From NCBI GenBank assembly GCA_022777455.1, contig JALFGI010000281.1, positions 1-10,057 on the forward strand: DNA of 10,057 nucleotides. Reading direction: 5' to 3'. The notes under the pieces are model-generated. The model did no database searches and had not been told where the DNA came from. It saw nothing but the letters and a program-made list of their open reading frames with translations. Positions 2,097 to 7,710 of this stretch are shown here, one piece after another. The DNA is from Clostridiales bacterium. Its GTDB lineage: Bacteria; Bacillota_A; Clostridia; Oscillospirales; Oscillospiraceae. The translations under genes were made by a program, and so were the position numbers. How positions within the stretch are numbered: position 1 is the first letter of the stretch; each line of letters begins with the position of its first letter.

Positions 2097-2117
2097 CAAA
2101 AACGCCCTCCTAAACGC

Positions 2118-2167
2118 AAAAACAGGAAGCACATCACAACTCTTTTGGAGAGTAGGATGTGCTTCCT
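2118..2167 (-). terminator. Long hairpin with T5 tract, between the GGGtGRT gene and the integrase stub
   Basis: Arms 2124-2135 (AGGAAGCACATC) and 2156-2167 (GATGTGCTTCCT) pair perfectly over 12 bp, and inside them 2139-2143 and 2149-2153 (ACTCT/AGAGT) form a second stem. On the minus strand the structure is followed by TG and five Ts (plus-strand A run 2118-2122), so it can end minus-strand transcription coming from the GGGtGRT operon before it enters the integrase. It might also be an attenuator for the integrase or a structure at the end of the element. Confidence 0.6.
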
Positions 2168-2170
2168 TGC

Positions 2171-2198
2171 ATTCTATTTGTGAAAAGTGGGGTTTGAA
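2171..2198 (-). promoter_or_regulatory. Possible weak promoter for the integrase stub
   Basis: On the minus strand TTCAAA lies 16 bases before TAGAAT (plus positions 2171-2176). Transcription would begin near 2164, inside the arm of the hairpin just described. The -35 box is poor, so this is only a candidate. Confidence 0.25.
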
Positions 2199-2230: not shown

Positions 2231-3229
2231 TTACTTCAGGCTCTCAGCAACGGCCACAGCCACGGAAACGGTAGCGCCGACCATGGGGTTGTTGCCCATG
2301 CCCAGGAAGCCCATCATTTCCACGTGAGCGGGGACGGAGGAGGAACCGGCGAACTGGGCATCGGAGTGCATACGGCCCATGGTGTCGGTCATGCCGTAGG
2401 AAGCAGGGCCTGCAGCCATGTTGTCAGGATGCAGGGTACGGCCCGTACCGCCGCCGGAGGCCACGGAGAAGTACTTCTTGCCCTGCTCGATGCACTCCTT
2501 CTTGTAGGTGCCGGCAACGGGATGCTGGAACCGGGTGGGGTTGGTGGAGTTACCGGTGATGGAGACATCCACGCCCTCGTGGTGCATGATGGCAACGCCC
2601 TCGCGGACATCGTCAGCACCGAAGCAGCGAACGGCAGCACGCTCGCCATCGGAGTACTTGTACTCCTTGACGATCTTCAGCTCGCCGGTGTAGTAGTCGA
2701 ACTGGGTCTGCACATAGGTGAAGCCGTTGATCCGGGAGATGATCTGAGCAGCGTCCTTGCCCAGGCCGTTCAGGATGACCCGCAGGGGCTCCTTACGAGC
2801 CTTGTTGGCGGAGCGGGCGATGCCGATGGCACCCTCAGCGGCGGCGAAGGACTCGTGGCCGGCCAGGAAGGCGAAGCACTTGGTCTCGTCCCGCAGCAGC
2901 ATGGCACCCAGGTTGCCATGGCCCAGACCAACCTTACGGTCCTCAGCCACGGAACCATCAATGCAGAAGGCCTGCAGGCCGATGCCGATGGCCTCAGCAG
3001 CCTCAGCGGCGTTCTTCACGCCCTTCTTCAAAGCAATGGCGGCGCCCACGGTGTAAGCCCAGCAGGCGTTCTCAAAGCAGATGGGCTGAATGCCCTTGAC
3101 GATCTCGTAGGGGTCGAAGCCCTTGGACTGGCACAGCTCGCGGCATGCTTCCACGGAGGACAGGCCATACTGAGCGAGGACACCATTGATCTTGTCAATT
3201 CTTCTTTCGTAACTTTCAAACAAAGCCAT
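2231..3229 (-). CDS. GGGtGRT protein (conserved, function unknown)
   Basis: This 332-residue protein belongs to the family named for the motif GGGTGRT, seen here at residues 259-265 within a longer conserved C-terminal part (LHPDNMAAGPASYGMTDTMG, about 266-285; AHVEMMGFLGMGNNPMVGAT, 301-320). Length agrees with the family. There is no signal peptide or membrane segment, so it should be cytosolic. Glycine-rich turns, His103/His125/His216/His217 and several Cys (29, 33, 51, 56, 89, 118, 202, 246) are visible, but I know of no assigned reaction. ATG 3229 is preceded 7 bases away by AGGAGGA (3237-3243). It lies 15 bases behind the Fe-S scaffold gene, so the two are co-transcribed and probably act together, perhaps in assembly or use of an Fe-S or related cofactor (inference). 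Codon use is strongly biased (CTG, GGC, AAG, ATC), as in highly expressed genes. Confidence 0.88.
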   Translation of the reverse strand: MALFESYERRIDKINGVLAQYGLSSVEACRELCQSKGFDPYEIVKGIQPICFENACWAYTVGAAIALKKGVKNAAEAAEAIGIGLQAFCIDGSVAEDRKVGLGHGNLGAMLLRDETKCFAFLAGHESFAAAEGAIGIARSANKARKEPLRVILNGLGKDAAQIISRINGFTYVQTQFDYYTGELKIVKEYKYSDGERAAVRCFGADDVREGVAIMHHEGVDVSITGNSTNPTRFQHPVAGTYKKECIEQGKKYFSVASGGGTGRTLHPDNMAAGPASYGMTDTMGRMHSDAQFAGSSSVPAHVEMMGFLGMGNNPMVGATVSVAVAVAESLK

Positions 3230-3244
3230 CGTCGTGTCCTCCTC

Positions 3245-3937
3245 TTATTCGTGGCGGGGGTCAATGTACTTGGGTGCGTTGTCGAAACGACCGTAGTGAC
3301 CCATAGCCTTCTTGTAGGCAGTGTTGGCGTCGTCGCCCTTCTTCATGAAGTCCATCATCTTGCCCAGGTTGACGAACTCATAGCCGATGATCAGGTTGTC
3401 CTCATCCAGCGCGACCCGGGTGACATAGCCTTCGGCCATCTCCAGGTAACGGGGACCCTTGGAACGGGTGGCGAACATGGTGCCCACCTGGCTGCGCAGG
3501 CCCTTGCCCAGGTCCTCCAGAGAAGCGCCCACAACCAGGCCGCCCTCGGAGAATGCGGACTGGCTGCGGCCGTAAACGATCTGCAGGAACAGCTCACGCA
3601 TAGCGGTGTTGATGGCGTCGCACACCAGGTCGGTGTTCAGCGCCTCCAGAATGGTCTTGCCGATCAGGATCTCAGCGGCCATTGCGGCGGAGTGGGTCAT
3701 GCCAGAGCAGCCGATGGTCTCAACCAGAGCCTCTTCGATCACGCCTTCCTTCACGTTCAGGGTCAGCTTGCAGGCACCCTGCTGAGGAGCACACCAGCCA
3801 ATACCGTGGGTAAAGCCGCTGATGTCCTTGATTTCCTTGGCCTGCACCCATTTGCCCTCTTCGGGAATGGGAGCGGGGCCATGGTATGCGCCCTTGGCGA
3901 CGGAGCACATGTTCTGTACTTCTGCACTATAAATCAT
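3245..3937 (-). CDS. IscU/NifU-like iron-sulfur cluster assembly scaffold protein
   Basis: The 230-residue product starts at ATG 3937, with AAAGGAA (3945-3951) 7 bases upstream; the longer open frame to 4012 would cross the 5' hairpin and has no start with a ribosome binding site. Residues 57-100 show the IscU/NifU N-terminal fold signature: KLTLNVKEGVIEEALVETIGC, then SGMTHSAAMAAEIL, then GKTILEAL. Cysteines at 11, 49, 56, 77 and 106 are candidates for cluster ligands; Cys77 sits in the GCxGxTxSA loop where scaffolds carry a ligand, and C49/C56 lie in GWCAPQQGAC. Unlike classical IscU (about 130 residues) it has about 110 further C-terminal residues (115-230) that look soluble and are not a known NfuA domain. 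It is the first gene of the operon with the GGGtGRT gene. No cysteine desulfurase gene is next to it here, so sulfur supply must come from elsewhere. Confidence 0.85.
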   Translation of the reverse strand: MIYSAEVQNMCSVAKGAYHGPAPIPEEGKWVQAKEIKDISGFTHGIGWCAPQQGACKLTLNVKEGVIEEALVETIGCSGMTHSAAMAAEILIGKTILEALNTDLVCDAINTAMRELFLQIVYGRSQSAFSEGGLVVGASLEDLGKGLRSQVGTMFATRSKGPRYLEMAEGYVTRVALDEDNLIIGYEFVNLGKMMDFMKKGDDANTAYKKAMGHYGRFDNAPKYIDPRHE

Positions 3938-3990
3938 GGCAATTTTCCTTTCTTTCAAAAGACGTTGTTTTCGCCTTTGGATTACACAGT

Positions 3991-4008
3991 GGAAAACCGG
4001 GATTTTCC
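3991..4008 (-). promoter_or_regulatory. Hairpin at the predicted 5' end of the scaffold-GGGtGRT mRNA
   Basis: GGAAAA (3991-3996) and TTTTCC (4003-4008) enclose CCGGGA. The predicted transcription start is near 4008, so the mRNA would begin almost directly with this stem-loop and then run about 70 bases to the ATG. Such 5' stems often stabilise mRNA; a regulatory role is possible. Confidence 0.4.
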
Positions 4009-4014
4009 GCATAT

Positions 4015-4043
4015 ATTATACATTCCGGGAAAGCAATTGTCAA
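4015..4043 (-). promoter_or_regulatory. Perfect-consensus sigma-A promoter of the scaffold-GGGtGRT operon
   Basis: On the minus strand TTGACA (plus 4038-4043) and TATAAT (plus 4015-4020) are separated by exactly 17 bases. Both boxes match the consensus at all six positions, which predicts strong expression. Inverted repeats CCGGGAA (4025-4031) and TTCCCGG (4044-4050) flank the -35 box and could be an operator. Confidence 0.85.
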
Positions 4044-4050
4044 TTCCCGG
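4025..4050. repeat. Inverted repeat CCGGGAA-N12-TTCCCGG around the -35 box
   Basis: The 7-base arms at 4025-4031 and 4044-4050 are exact reverse complements with 12 bases between them that contain most of TTGACA. A third CCGGGA is at 3997-4002 in the 5' hairpin loop. Position and symmetry fit a repressor binding site, but no known regulator box is recognised. Confidence 0.5.
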
Positions 4051-4081
4051 ATGTAGGAAAATCAATAAAAGCGCACCGATT

Positions 4082-4642
4082 TCAGCATTCCTTGATCCAT
4101 TCTTTCGTCCAAGCGCTTTTCAGTTCTCTGAAAGCCTGATCGCACCAGTCCGCAATGTACACCTGATTCTCTGCCAGATACGCATACAGCTTTCGGCAAA
4201 CAGATATTGCGTGATCGTATTCCTCCCGAGTGATGTTACCGGTTTCCAACGCCTCGTCCAGTTCATCCCGGTCAAGAACCTCCAGCACATCTCCAATGGC
4301 AACAATATCCAGATATAAATCCGCAAAACAGGGGTTATCCGGATTGTCAAAGCAATTACCGGCAGTGACATCAAAGTAGAGACTAATTCGCTGACCCTGA
4401 CGGTCATACATGGCGGTAATCCAGAAAGACTGTTCCTTCAGCGCAATCTGCAGCCAGCCAAATCCCTCATCCGCAATTAGAACATCCCCAAAAGGATAAT
4501 GAATCGTTAAAGGAGCAGTCAGTTCCCGCAAAATGCTCAGGCTCATCCGTCCCTGATGGCCGTTTCGCCGGAAGTCCCGGGCGATATAATCCTTGCGCAG
4601 AACGCGGCCCCAATCGGTTCGTTTCATGTCCTTGCTCTGCAT
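4082..4642 (-). CDS. DUF402 protein, likely nucleotide phosphatase
   Basis: The 186-residue protein has the layout of DUF402: an N-terminal part with a YPFGD segment (49-53), then LYFDVTAG (88-95), FADLYLDIV (106-114), and VLDRDELDEALETGNIT (122-138) followed by a helical end. The acidic residues D91, D108, D112, D124, D126 and E127 sit where characterised members bind divalent metal. From memory of the family, characterised members include FomD (a nucleotidyl-phosphonate hydrolase) and a staphylococcal nucleoside tri/diphosphatase, so a metal-dependent nucleotide phosphatase role is likely, with substrate unknown. The start at 4642 is preceded by GGGAG (4649-4653); a later ATG (4627) has no such site. 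It lies 18 bases behind rpe and probably shares its mRNA. No clear terminator is seen between its stop and the next promoter. Confidence 0.8.
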   Translation of the reverse strand: MQSKDMKRTDWGRVLRKDYIARDFRRNGHQGRMSLSILRELTAPLTIHYPFGDVLIADEGFGWLQIALKEQSFWITAMYDRQGQRISLYFDVTAGNCFDNPDNPCFADLYLDIVAIGDVLEVLDRDELDEALETGNITREEYDHAISVCRKLYAYLAENQVYIADWCDQAFRELKSAWTKEWIKEC

Positions 4643-4660: not shown

Positions 4661-5311
4661 TTACGCCTGAATGGTTTTCACAAACGCTGCCCGGTCGGCG
4701 GCTTTGAAATAGGCAGAACCGGTGACCAGTACGCCAGCACCATTGGCCTTGCAGATGGGAGCTGTATTCCGGTCAATGCCGCCATCCACAGAAAGCAGGC
4801 AGCCGGGGTTCACTTCATCCAAACGGCGGCGCAGATTCTGAAGCTTTGGCATCATATCCGCTTTGAATTTCTGACCGCCGAAGCCGGGCTCAACGGTCAT
4901 CACAAGAATCAGATCACACAGGGAAAGGTACGGCTCCGCCTCCTCTGCCTGGGTACCGGGCTTCAGAGATATACCCGCCTTACATCCCATGGAACGGATG
5001 CGCTTCAAGGCTTTGATTGTATTCTCCTGAGAGTCTGCCTCAATATGTATGGTGAGCCAATCGGCTCCAGCAGCAACGAACTGCTCCACATAACGAATGG
5101 GTTTTTCGATCATCAGATGGACGTCCAGAGTCATCTGGGTCACATCCCGAATTGCCTTCAAAGCCGGAAGGCCGAAGGAGAAATTGGGAACGAAGTTTCC
5201 GTCCATCACGTCAACGTGAATCCAATCGGCACCGCTCTTTTCAATATCATGAATATCCCGCTCCAGATTTACAAAATCCGCAGCTAGAATGGAAGGTGCA
5301 GCTTTTGCCAT
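4661..5311 (-). CDS. rpe: Ribulose-phosphate 3-epimerase
   Basis: This enzyme interconverts D-ribulose 5-phosphate and D-xylulose 5-phosphate in the pentose phosphate pathway in the cytosol. The 216-residue TIM barrel is full length. Key residues are visible: S7 in APSILAADF, metal ligands and catalytic acids H32 and D34 in HVDVMDGNFVPN, H65 in DVHLMI, the phosphate-binding loop VEPGFGGQKF (140-149) and D176 in SVDGGI. AGGAG (plus 5318-5322) lies 6 bases before the ATG. In many Firmicutes rpe follows rsgA and precedes thiN; here it has its own promoter and is followed by a DUF402 gene instead. Confidence 0.97.
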   Translation of the reverse strand: MAKAAPSILAADFVNLERDIHDIEKSGADWIHVDVMDGNFVPNFSFGLPALKAIRDVTQMTLDVHLMIEKPIRYVEQFVAAGADWLTIHIEADSQENTIKALKRIRSMGCKAGISLKPGTQAEEAEPYLSLCDLILVMTVEPGFGGQKFKADMMPKLQNLRRRLDEVNPGCLLSVDGGIDRNTAPICKANGAGVLVTGSAYFKAADRAAFVKTIQA

Positions 5312-5688: not shown

Positions 5689-7710
5689 TTAAGATTTTGC
5701 AGGTGTGCTGCCGCGGCTGGCCAGATCCAAAACCACATTGCAATCGAAGTAGTTGGAGAACTGGCTGGAATACCACGCCATCGCTTCACCGGTGACCATC
5801 AGACGGGTCTGACGGACAAAGGTGGTGTTCACATCTACTCTGGGAGAAGAACCGTTGTTCAGGAAGAAGCGGATGCCGCTGTTGTAAAGCACATTGAACG
5901 TTGTGCCGGAATATGCTTCAATATCGCTGGCCCGGGCAAAGACCATCGTATCCACCTCGCCAATGACGGGGGTGATCTGGTTGGTCCAGTTCTGAACCTC
6001 GGCCTGAATCTGCAGGGTATTCATGCCGCGGTAGGCCTGGTTACTGTAGGTGTAGCTGGCAATGGTGTAGCCCTTTTCCCGCAGGGCCGCCACAATCTCC
6101 TTGGCACCGGCAACTTCGTCATCATAGAACGTCTGGCCAAAACGGGACACATAGGAGGTATTGGTTCGATAGCCGAACACGCCCTCGGTACCGGTGACAG
6201 CCAGAATCGCGCGGGCTCCCTGGTAGCAGAAATCAGGATGCTCCTGAATAAAGGCTTCCAGAACGGGAACCAGGTCGTAATTGCCAATCTGGGTCTGACC
6301 GCTGGAATCCACATAGGCAGCCTTGATATCGCCGTTGTCGTCCAGCACCAGCTTATAAGCAAAGCCGTGGCCATTGGCATCGGGAGTACCGTCCTTATCG
6401 GGGTCAACCATATACTCAAAATAGTTGACCATGGTTTCCGTAATCATCACCGGCTTCTTGCCCTGGGGCAGATAGATGGATTTGGAGAAGAAGCTGTTGT
6501 TGCCATCCACACCGGGGACGCTGGTGATGAAGCTGTCGAAATCCACCAGCACATAGTTGGAGGCATACAGCTGATTCAGAATCCGGGTAAACTCCTCCAC
6601 GGAAACGAAGTTCTTGTTATATAGACCCGCCAGGTCGGCGCCGGAAATATCCTTGTTGCAGGCCCTGGAGGCATCCGCCATCAGGACGTGGAAGGAAAGG
6701 TTGGGAATGGAGGAAACATCCTTCACTTCCACCAGCTGGTTCTTCTCATTGACCAGCTCTGCCTTCTTGGCAGTTACCTGCTGGGCAAACTTATCATTGC
6801 TTCCGGTGTAGGAATCCAGCAAGGCAATGGCACCGTCATAATCATAACCGACCACCAAGGTCTCAGCCTCGGCAATCAATCTCTTGAACTCCTGCTCTGC
6901 GGCACCGGCTGCATTCGCCTGCTGCTGCGCTTCCGCCTTGGCAACAGAATCTTTGTTCTTCTTTACAGTCAGCGCATTGGAAACAGAACCGACAATGAAA
7001 CTGATAATCAGGAACAGCGCTGCGCCGGCAATGATTGCTGGGAGATAAACCTCCTTGAAAATGCGCTTCTTCTCCCGCTTTCTCCGGCGGATATACTTGG
7101 GATCCAGCGGATCCAGTACCTCCTCGGTTTTCATCTTGGTCACAGGCTCCATATACATATCCAGGAGCTTGGAGAACGCGCTCTTTTTTGCAGGAGTGGC
7201 TGGCTTCTTTTTCTTTTCTTTTTTGGGCCGTACTCCCAACTTGGGAAGCTTCAGACCGCCCTTCTTCTTTTGGGGAGGAGCAGGAGTTTCCCCTTCTTCA
7301 GGATCGTGCATTTCCTCTTCGGAATAGTCCTCTTCCCCCTGGGCATAGCCTTCTTCCTCCTGGGAATCATCCGGTTCTTCCTGGGGGTATTCCTCCTCCC
7401 CGGGTTCACCGTAGATACGCACATCGTCGTCCTCATCGTAGTCCGATTCTGCCCGAACTTCAGAACGCTCCGGGAAATCAGCAGTCAGATCCTCGTTGGG
7501 ATCATCGTCCTCGCTCAGATCAACATCCTGGTATTCTTCCGGAGGCTGTTCAAAGTGAAATTTTTTGGTGGCATCCTCCTCGTCGTCAGATGCATCGTCC
7601 TCTAATATATCAGAAAAATCAAAATCTTCATCCTCGGACAGAAAATCCTTCGGATCGAAGCCATATTCTTCTTCAAAATCGAAATCGACATCGAAATCGT
7701 TCTTATCCAT
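5689..7710 (-). CDS. Single-pass membrane protein with acidic cytoplasmic tail and polysaccharide-deacetylase-like extracellular domain
   Basis: Order of regions in the 673 residues: 1-145 extremely Asp/Glu-rich, low complexity; 148-176 Lys/Pro-rich; 205-221 basic cluster (RRRKREKKR) before one membrane helix at about 223-243, giving an inside-to-outside orientation; 250-325 Ala/Gln/Lys-rich, probably coiled coil or TPR-like; 335-670 extracellular domain resembling the NodB/polysaccharide deacetylase fold (SFHVLMADASRA, then LVDFDSFI, YLPQGKKPVMITETMVNYFEYM at 413-434 in two parts, and GTEGVFGYRTN at 507-517). The NodB metal motifs TFDD and HxxxH are not visible: ITETMVNYF stands where the aspartates are expected, so activity is doubtful. 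A DPDKDGTPD loop (436-444) resembles an EF-hand calcium site. A cell-wall role is inference. Promoter at 7745-7773; weak AGGG ribosome binding site. Confidence 0.75.
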   Translation of the reverse strand: MDKNDFDVDFDFEEEYGFDPKDFLSEDEDFDFSDILEDDASDDEEDATKKFHFEQPPEEYQDVDLSEDDDPNEDLTADFPERSEVRAESDYDEDDDVRIYGEPGEEEYPQEEPDDSQEEEGYAQGEEDYSEEEMHDPEEGETPAPPQKKKGGLKLPKLGVRPKKEKKKKPATPAKKSAFSKLLDMYMEPVTKMKTEEVLDPLDPKYIRRRKREKKRIFKEVYLPAIIAGAALFLIISFIVGSVSNALTVKKNKDSVAKAEAQQQANAAGAAEQEFKRLIAEAETLVVGYDYDGAIALLDSYTGSNDKFAQQVTAKKAELVNEKNQLVEVKDVSSIPNLSFHVLMADASRACNKDISGADLAGLYNKNFVSVEEFTRILNQLYASNYVLVDFDSFITSVPGVDGNNSFFSKSIYLPQGKKPVMITETMVNYFEYMVDPDKDGTPDANGHGFAYKLVLDDNGDIKAAYVDSSGQTQIGNYDLVPVLEAFIQEHPDFCYQGARAILAVTGTEGVFGYRTNTSYVSRFGQTFYDDEVAGAKEIVAALREKGYTIASYTYSNQAYRGMNTLQIQAEVQNWTNQITPVIGEVDTMVFARASDIEAYSGTTFNVLYNSGIRFFLNNGSSPRVDVNTTFVRQTRLMVTGEAMAWYSSQFSNYFDCNVVLDLASRGSTPAKS

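Follow-up and report, generated by a model that had tools for sequence, protein, structure and literature searches.

A two-gene unit on the minus strand

The window analysed here comprises 10,057 nucleotides from a Clostridiales bacterium (contig JALFGI010000281.1, assembly GCA_022777455.1). On its minus strand lie two co-directional genes that form an exclusive pair in the genomes we surveyed and may encode the subunits of an iron-sulfur (Fe-S) complex. The upstream gene (3245..3937) encodes a NifU-like protein of 230 residues with an IscU-like N-terminal part (~38-125) and a conserved C-terminal extension; the downstream gene (2231..3229) encodes a GGGtGRT protein of 332 residues, a member of the PF14057 family. 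The 15 nucleotides between them (3230..3244), a distance already given in a preliminary description of this DNA, contain the Shine-Dalgarno-like AGAGGAGGA in front of the GGGtGRT start, and the likewise RBS-like GAAAGGAAA precedes the NifU-like start, in line with the ribosome binding sites described for both genes. A mechanical list of open reading frames (ORFs) places the NifU-like start at 4012; the family alignment favours 3937.

The pair is preceded by a sigma-70-type promoter, TTGACA-N17-TATAAT (4015..4043, minus strand), which indeed has the perfect consensus ascribed to it (12/12 matches). For comparison, we used the best 80 of at least 582 GGGtGRT relatives from a scan of genome contigs (loci L001-L080), a set biased towards close relatives. 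Among the 70 upstream regions with enough sequence, including that of the window, 34 carry a promoter with at least 11/12 consensus matches, 19 of these with 12/12, compared to none of 70 mononucleotide shuffles (one per region). On the 3' side, a terminator-like hairpin with a U-rich stretch (2112..2174, minus strand) follows the pair; the segment 2105-2180 folds at -31.7 kcal/mol (z -5.2 against 200 shuffles), and a simple terminator scan did not include this hairpin among its hits.

Both genes have a strong codon bias, with effective numbers of codons of 31.0 (NifU-like) and 29.2 (GGGtGRT), compared to 40.6-50.6 in six other genes of the window, and neither contains a single TTA, CTA or TCA codon. 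This bias explains an antisense ORF of 664 codons (2324..4318, plus strand), as had been proposed: the antisense frame over both genes stayed open in 2000/2000 synonymous resamplings with the pair's own codon usage and in just 138/2000 with that of five other window genes. When ORFs are chosen by length, such antisense frames even form clusters of their own (24 and 10 loci of the 80 relatives), a trap for annotation. The strong expression claimed in the preliminary description is supported for relatives by the accessible parts of published proteomics, and it appears plausible for the window itself.

Pairing, distribution and transfer

In all 75 of the 80 loci with visible upstream sequence, a NifU-like gene lies directly upstream of the GGGtGRT gene and on the same strand. 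In the remaining five (L002, L014, L016, L059 and L074), the upstream gene is invisible because the GGGtGRT frame starts ~120 bases or less from the end of the locus. Rare adjacency of the two families had been named beforehand as evidence against a functional link; instead, they are adjacent wherever this can be seen. Likewise, a NifU-like gene accompanies GGGtGRT in 45/45 true PF14057 loci among L081-L126, which stem from whole genomes and of which eight repeat genomes already counted; L124 was rejected as a PF14057 locus, as it encodes threonine synthase. The intergenic distance is at most 97 nucleotides in 134/136 pairs (repeats included) and 228 nucleotides in two loci of one genome. In a clustering of the gene neighbourhoods of the 80 loci, the GGGtGRT and NifU-like families lead with 55 and 47 loci, numbers that are lowered by the picking of the longest ORF, which replaced real pair genes by antisense ORFs at other loci. 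The most frequent other neighbour is an ABC ATPase (13/80 loci), and the 80 loci show no recurring third gene.

The same picture emerges from genomes drawn over whole phyla, whose completeness is not stated and whose phylum labels rest on named loci. PF14057 was found in 66 of the 145 genomes of the Victivallis-phylum sample, and the same 66 encode the NifU-like protein (lowest full match 344.1 bits). In the Clostridium-phylum sample, PF14057 is present in 19 of 299 genomes; exactly these 19 also give NifU-like matches that score at least 313.8 bits, and one of them carries two copies of each gene. A further 66 genomes of this sample gave only partial NifU-like matches, none above 27.7 bits, which we take as ordinary IscU-type proteins; with this gap in scores, the NifU-like family is discrete from the latter. 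Pooled, 85 genomes have both genes, 359 have neither, and none has only one. The pairing is exclusive and one-to-one.

Elsewhere, PF14057 exceeds the cut-off in 7/299 genomes of the Succinivibrio phylum, in 3/148 of the phylum of a Desulfobulbaceae metagenome-assembled genome (MAG), and in 1/198 of the Parabacteroides phylum. In the Victivallis-phylum sample, 49/145 genomes encode a heme-copper oxidase (PF00115 over the cut-off), namely 49/79 without the pair and 0/66 with it; a 21-bit match in one pair-bearing genome (G146) remains under the cut-off. This mutual exclusion is significant (Fisher p 6.6e-18), with a p value that is uncorrected for kinship and applies to this phylum only.

Trees of the two proteins, computed from 55 chosen rows each, agree in several unexpected placements. 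In each tree, well-supported branches force three changes of the Pseudomonadota label, and no more than these are required: Succinivibrionaceae are placed among relatives from Oscillospiraceae, L118 joins two loci of the Desulfobulbaceae-phylum sample (L125 and L126), and the five genomes of L119-L123 form a separate group. Because these misplacements are the same in both trees, we read them as joint transfer of the pair between lineages; differential loss is an alternative, and several rows are MAG contigs, for which misbinning is possible. GGGtGRT genes or pieces of them also occur in six fecal 'Bacteriophage sp.' records (MT837192, MT835590, MT835504, MT838301, MT836003 and MT839063) and in several OY725xxx 'plasmid' records, which perhaps represent misassigned chromosomal DNA.

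Two proteins and a possible iron-sulfur complex

The NifU-like protein matches the NifU N-terminal domain (PF01592) with only 23.4 bits. As this match is confined to residues 56-113, the C-terminal extension of ~109 residues, previously described as one of 110, is real. Furthermore, the protein stays far below the NCBIfam equivalog cut-offs (TIGR03419 26.6/187.9, TIGR01999 21.6/192.4 and TIGR01994 21.2/92.5 bits). A separate canonical NifU/IscU protein (168-176 bits) is encoded in seven of eight genomes examined, and the eighth, from Parabacteroides, has the NifU-like protein alone.

We compared 138 NifU-like sequences (the window, eight repeats and 129 other loci) with canonical NifU/IscU, represented by nine copies that seven of these genomes encode. 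In IscU, Asp39 and the LPPxK motif serve cluster release and chaperone-driven transfer. The CGD motif, which contains Asp39, is found in 0/138 family members; its presence in 9/9 canonical copies is by construction, since these were chosen by the pattern C[GA]D. Likewise, 0/138 members have LPxxKxHC, compared to 8/9 canonical copies, and 0/138 have the chaperone (HscA) motif LPPxK, compared to 3/9. By contrast, C49, C77 and C106 are conserved in 138/138 sequences, and C56 in 132/138. C77 aligns with the cysteine of the GC motif (C63 of IscU), and the invariant VCDAIN (138/138) puts C106 immediately in front of the last helix, where IscU also has a cysteine. The CGD stretch is replaced by QGA or QGT, with a cysteine four residues upstream. 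Structure comparison indicates that residues ~38-125 are predicted to adopt the IscU fold. The NifU-like protein therefore resembles the IscU/NifU N-terminal domain in its predicted fold, its GC-motif cysteine and its last cysteine, yet differs from it in the missing motifs, the shifted first cysteine, the long C-terminal stretch and the score gap between 313.8 and 27.7 bits.

The GGGtGRT protein is a full-length member of its family (657.5 bits against a cut-off of 27, profile positions 1-326 of 327), and we found no paper in the open-licence literature searched that assigns it a function, as the preliminary description had anticipated. Its predicted model (m439710a57505) consists of N-terminal helices and a Rossmann-like alpha/beta part. 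Three loops are conserved, GHES (124-127), TGNSTN (225-230) and SGGGTGRTLHPDN (258-270), and the invariant polar residues form an enzyme-like pattern. No solved structure of any GGGtGRT relative was found. Structures of sugar-isomerase (SIS) domains match the model weakly across most of the SIS chain. SIS proteins have a phosphate-binding loop, S-x-[ST]-G-x-[ST], after a strand. GGGtGRT has a loop of this pattern in S223-I-T-G-N-S228-T-N, at strand 222-225 and before helix 235-249, where its S-x-T-G-N-S-x-N resembles the S-x-S-G-N-S-x-N of GmhA, MurQ and the GlmS isomerase domain in the same strand-to-helix context; unlike these, it has extra strands between both motifs. The loose motif was chosen post hoc and also occurs in 2/896 control ORFs. 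In a profile comparison with 26 SIS_2-type sequences, hhalign gave no significant similarity (probability 2.3%, score 22.9), with one of 30 column-shuffled controls scoring 25.0 and a reversed control 18.9, and none of 112 GGGtGRT members matches a Pfam SIS family. A SIS-like fold of the Rossmann-like domain is thus possible, but unproven. A second, strongly diverged pair at L145 (genome G804, contig C94) has the signature loop GGGIGRTLNPDD and SGNATN in place of TGNSTN, and is possibly a copy with altered function.

A link of the pair to iron is supported by publications, as far as their accessible passages go. In Clostridium pasteurianum, both the GGGtGRT protein F502_05012 (7.1-fold early, 2.2-fold late) and the NifU-related protein F502_05017 (2.4-/3.7-fold early, 1.6-/2.9-fold late) were higher with iron (PMC5395762), and in Bacteroides thetaiotaomicron, BT0173-74 transcripts were 11- to 12.8-fold lower under iron depletion (PMC10434189). 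Proteins of the pair also appear in protein surveys of gut and rumen (PMC11204068, PMC7035244, PMC12643325, PMC13041051 and PMC12014591), in the available parts of which DFSSTS7063_01431 (GGGtGRT) and DFSSTS7063_01432 (NifU N-terminal) are both down (PMC12014591), and one GGGtGRT and one NifU N-terminal protein decrease together (PMC13041051). In one passage, GGGtGRT is named among putative virulence-factor hits (PMC9942572), a role for which the present analysis yields no support.

The exclusive pairing, the two-gene cassette, the IscU fold devoid of transfer motifs, the iron response and the enzyme-like partner lead us to favour, tentatively and at somewhat less than an even chance, a two-subunit Fe-S complex found mainly in anaerobes. 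Both genes would encode an obligate two-protein unit, in which the NifU-like protein would hold an Fe-S cluster or iron via C49, C77 and C106 and serve GGGtGRT alone rather than act as a general scaffold. GGGtGRT would contribute an alpha/beta domain resembling an active site, whose SGGGTGRTLHPDN, TGNSTN and GHES loops may bind a small ligand, complete the metal site or both, and the amount of the pair would be set by the iron supply. The pairing, the co-occurrence, the conserved cysteines, the missing motifs and the shared misplacements in the trees are direct results, the IscU fold is a prediction and the iron response comes from publications; cluster binding, a physical complex and catalysis are inferred.

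Several points weigh against this proposal. The first cysteine of IscU, C37, aligns with Q53, and C49 is displaced from it by four residues, so that cluster ligation by C49, C77 and C106 can only be inferred. For the NifU portion, model confidence is middling and falls partly below 50 in the C-terminal extension, and none of its matches in the Protein Data Bank reaches an E value of 0.001. GGGtGRT lacks a strictly invariant cysteine; C118 comes closest (141/144). Even perfect gene pairing is not proof of a stable complex; the two genes share a reading frame and were modelled as a single read-through chain (15 fused and 97 single alignment rows), in which both folds formed (pLDDT 73.8, pTM 0.66), but their relative placement is not confident and most of the SGGGTGRTLHPDN loop scores below 50, an outcome that speaks neither for nor against a complex. 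Finally, three Vibrio records of ~1.85 Mb carry a GGGtGRT gene. The gene is consequently not restricted to obligate anaerobes, and what is supported of the earlier attribution to anaerobes is a bias in one phylum.

The preliminary description had instead envisaged a dedicated scaffold that builds a cluster and delivers it to GGGtGRT, then the sole working enzyme. The predicted IscU fold, the three conserved cysteines and the exclusive pairing would all agree with this, but we consider it unlikely. A dedicated cluster-carrying partner describes the NifU-like protein better than a scaffold for a client, because the whole family lacks CGD and LPxxKxHC; moreover, GGGtGRT has no invariant set of cysteines for receiving a cluster, and in C. 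pasteurianum, 2-D gels show the NifU-related protein itself in two spots (PMC5395762, accessible part), which would suit a partner in stoichiometric amounts better than an assembly factor acting catalytically. Of the earlier interpretation, the exclusive pairing, the iron link and the anaerobe bias in one phylum are supported, whereas the scaffold role in the IscU sense is not.

A more doubtful explanation is the buffering or storage of iron-sulfur, in which the pair would accumulate with plentiful iron and keep Fe-S for later, as do ferritin or IssA, the latter from a protein family other than those of the pair. Such a role, akin to that of the thioferrate storage protein IssA (PMC5524996, in part), would fit the iron-dependent rise in C. 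pasteurianum and B. thetaiotaomicron, which belong to different phyla (PMC5395762, PMC10434189), and the appearance in gut and rumen protein surveys. However, the invariant polar residues of GGGtGRT are enzyme-like, and in the accessible table on C. pasteurianum, ordinary Fe-S proteins, namely hydrogenase, pyruvate:ferredoxin oxidoreductase and aconitase, respond to iron alike (PMC5395762).

SufU, a Zn-dependent sulfurtransferase, carries CGD and is located in suf operons. We consider it very unlikely that the NifU-like protein works like SufU as a sulfurtransferase, or binds Zn, and that GGGtGRT uses the sulfur to modify a metabolite or protein: its cysteines are conserved and the SufU structures 5xt5 and 6jzv share the IscU-type fold, but they match its model less well than IscU (probability 0.84-0.85, TMt 0.32-0.37), CGD is absent, the gene lies outside suf operons, and the iron response and the missing third gene speak against it.

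The two-subunit complex may be extended to a bolder and rather improbable proposal, a hitherto unrecognised type of Fe-S enzyme of anaerobes in which an IscU fold would be the permanent cofactor-holding subunit, locked to a SIS-like, phosphosugar-binding GGGtGRT, with the SGGGTGRTLHPDN loop completing or sharing the cluster and the cassette spreading between phyla as part of the iron-dependent proteins of gut communities. Should the NifU-like protein prove to be a cofactor subunit, the role of IscU-type proteins would extend beyond scaffolding. The unit, which appears in human, chicken and rumen protein surveys and is raised by iron in two phyla, consists of just two genes, so that its deletion, purification and structure determination are feasible in laboratory strains such as C. 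pasteurianum and B. thetaiotaomicron, which makes an old 'conserved hypothetical' testable.

Other genes of the window

Downstream of the pair, a plus-strand gene (1484-1972) without a Pfam match shares 74% identity over 152 residues with the beginning of a 333-residue protein in L006 (12143-13141, minus strand), stops shortly afterwards and is a truncated, regulator-like gene. Another plus-strand frame (538-861) covers only the final part of the resolvase N-terminal domain (profile positions 104-144 of 145) and is likely a mobile-element remnant. On the other side, the pair's promoter has a gene for a DUF402 protein (4082-4642, minus strand) as its immediate upstream neighbour, and beyond it come those for ribulose-phosphate 3-epimerase (4661-5311) and a 673-residue protein without a Pfam match (5689-7710), and, further upstream, by a MatE transporter gene and the end of uvrB.
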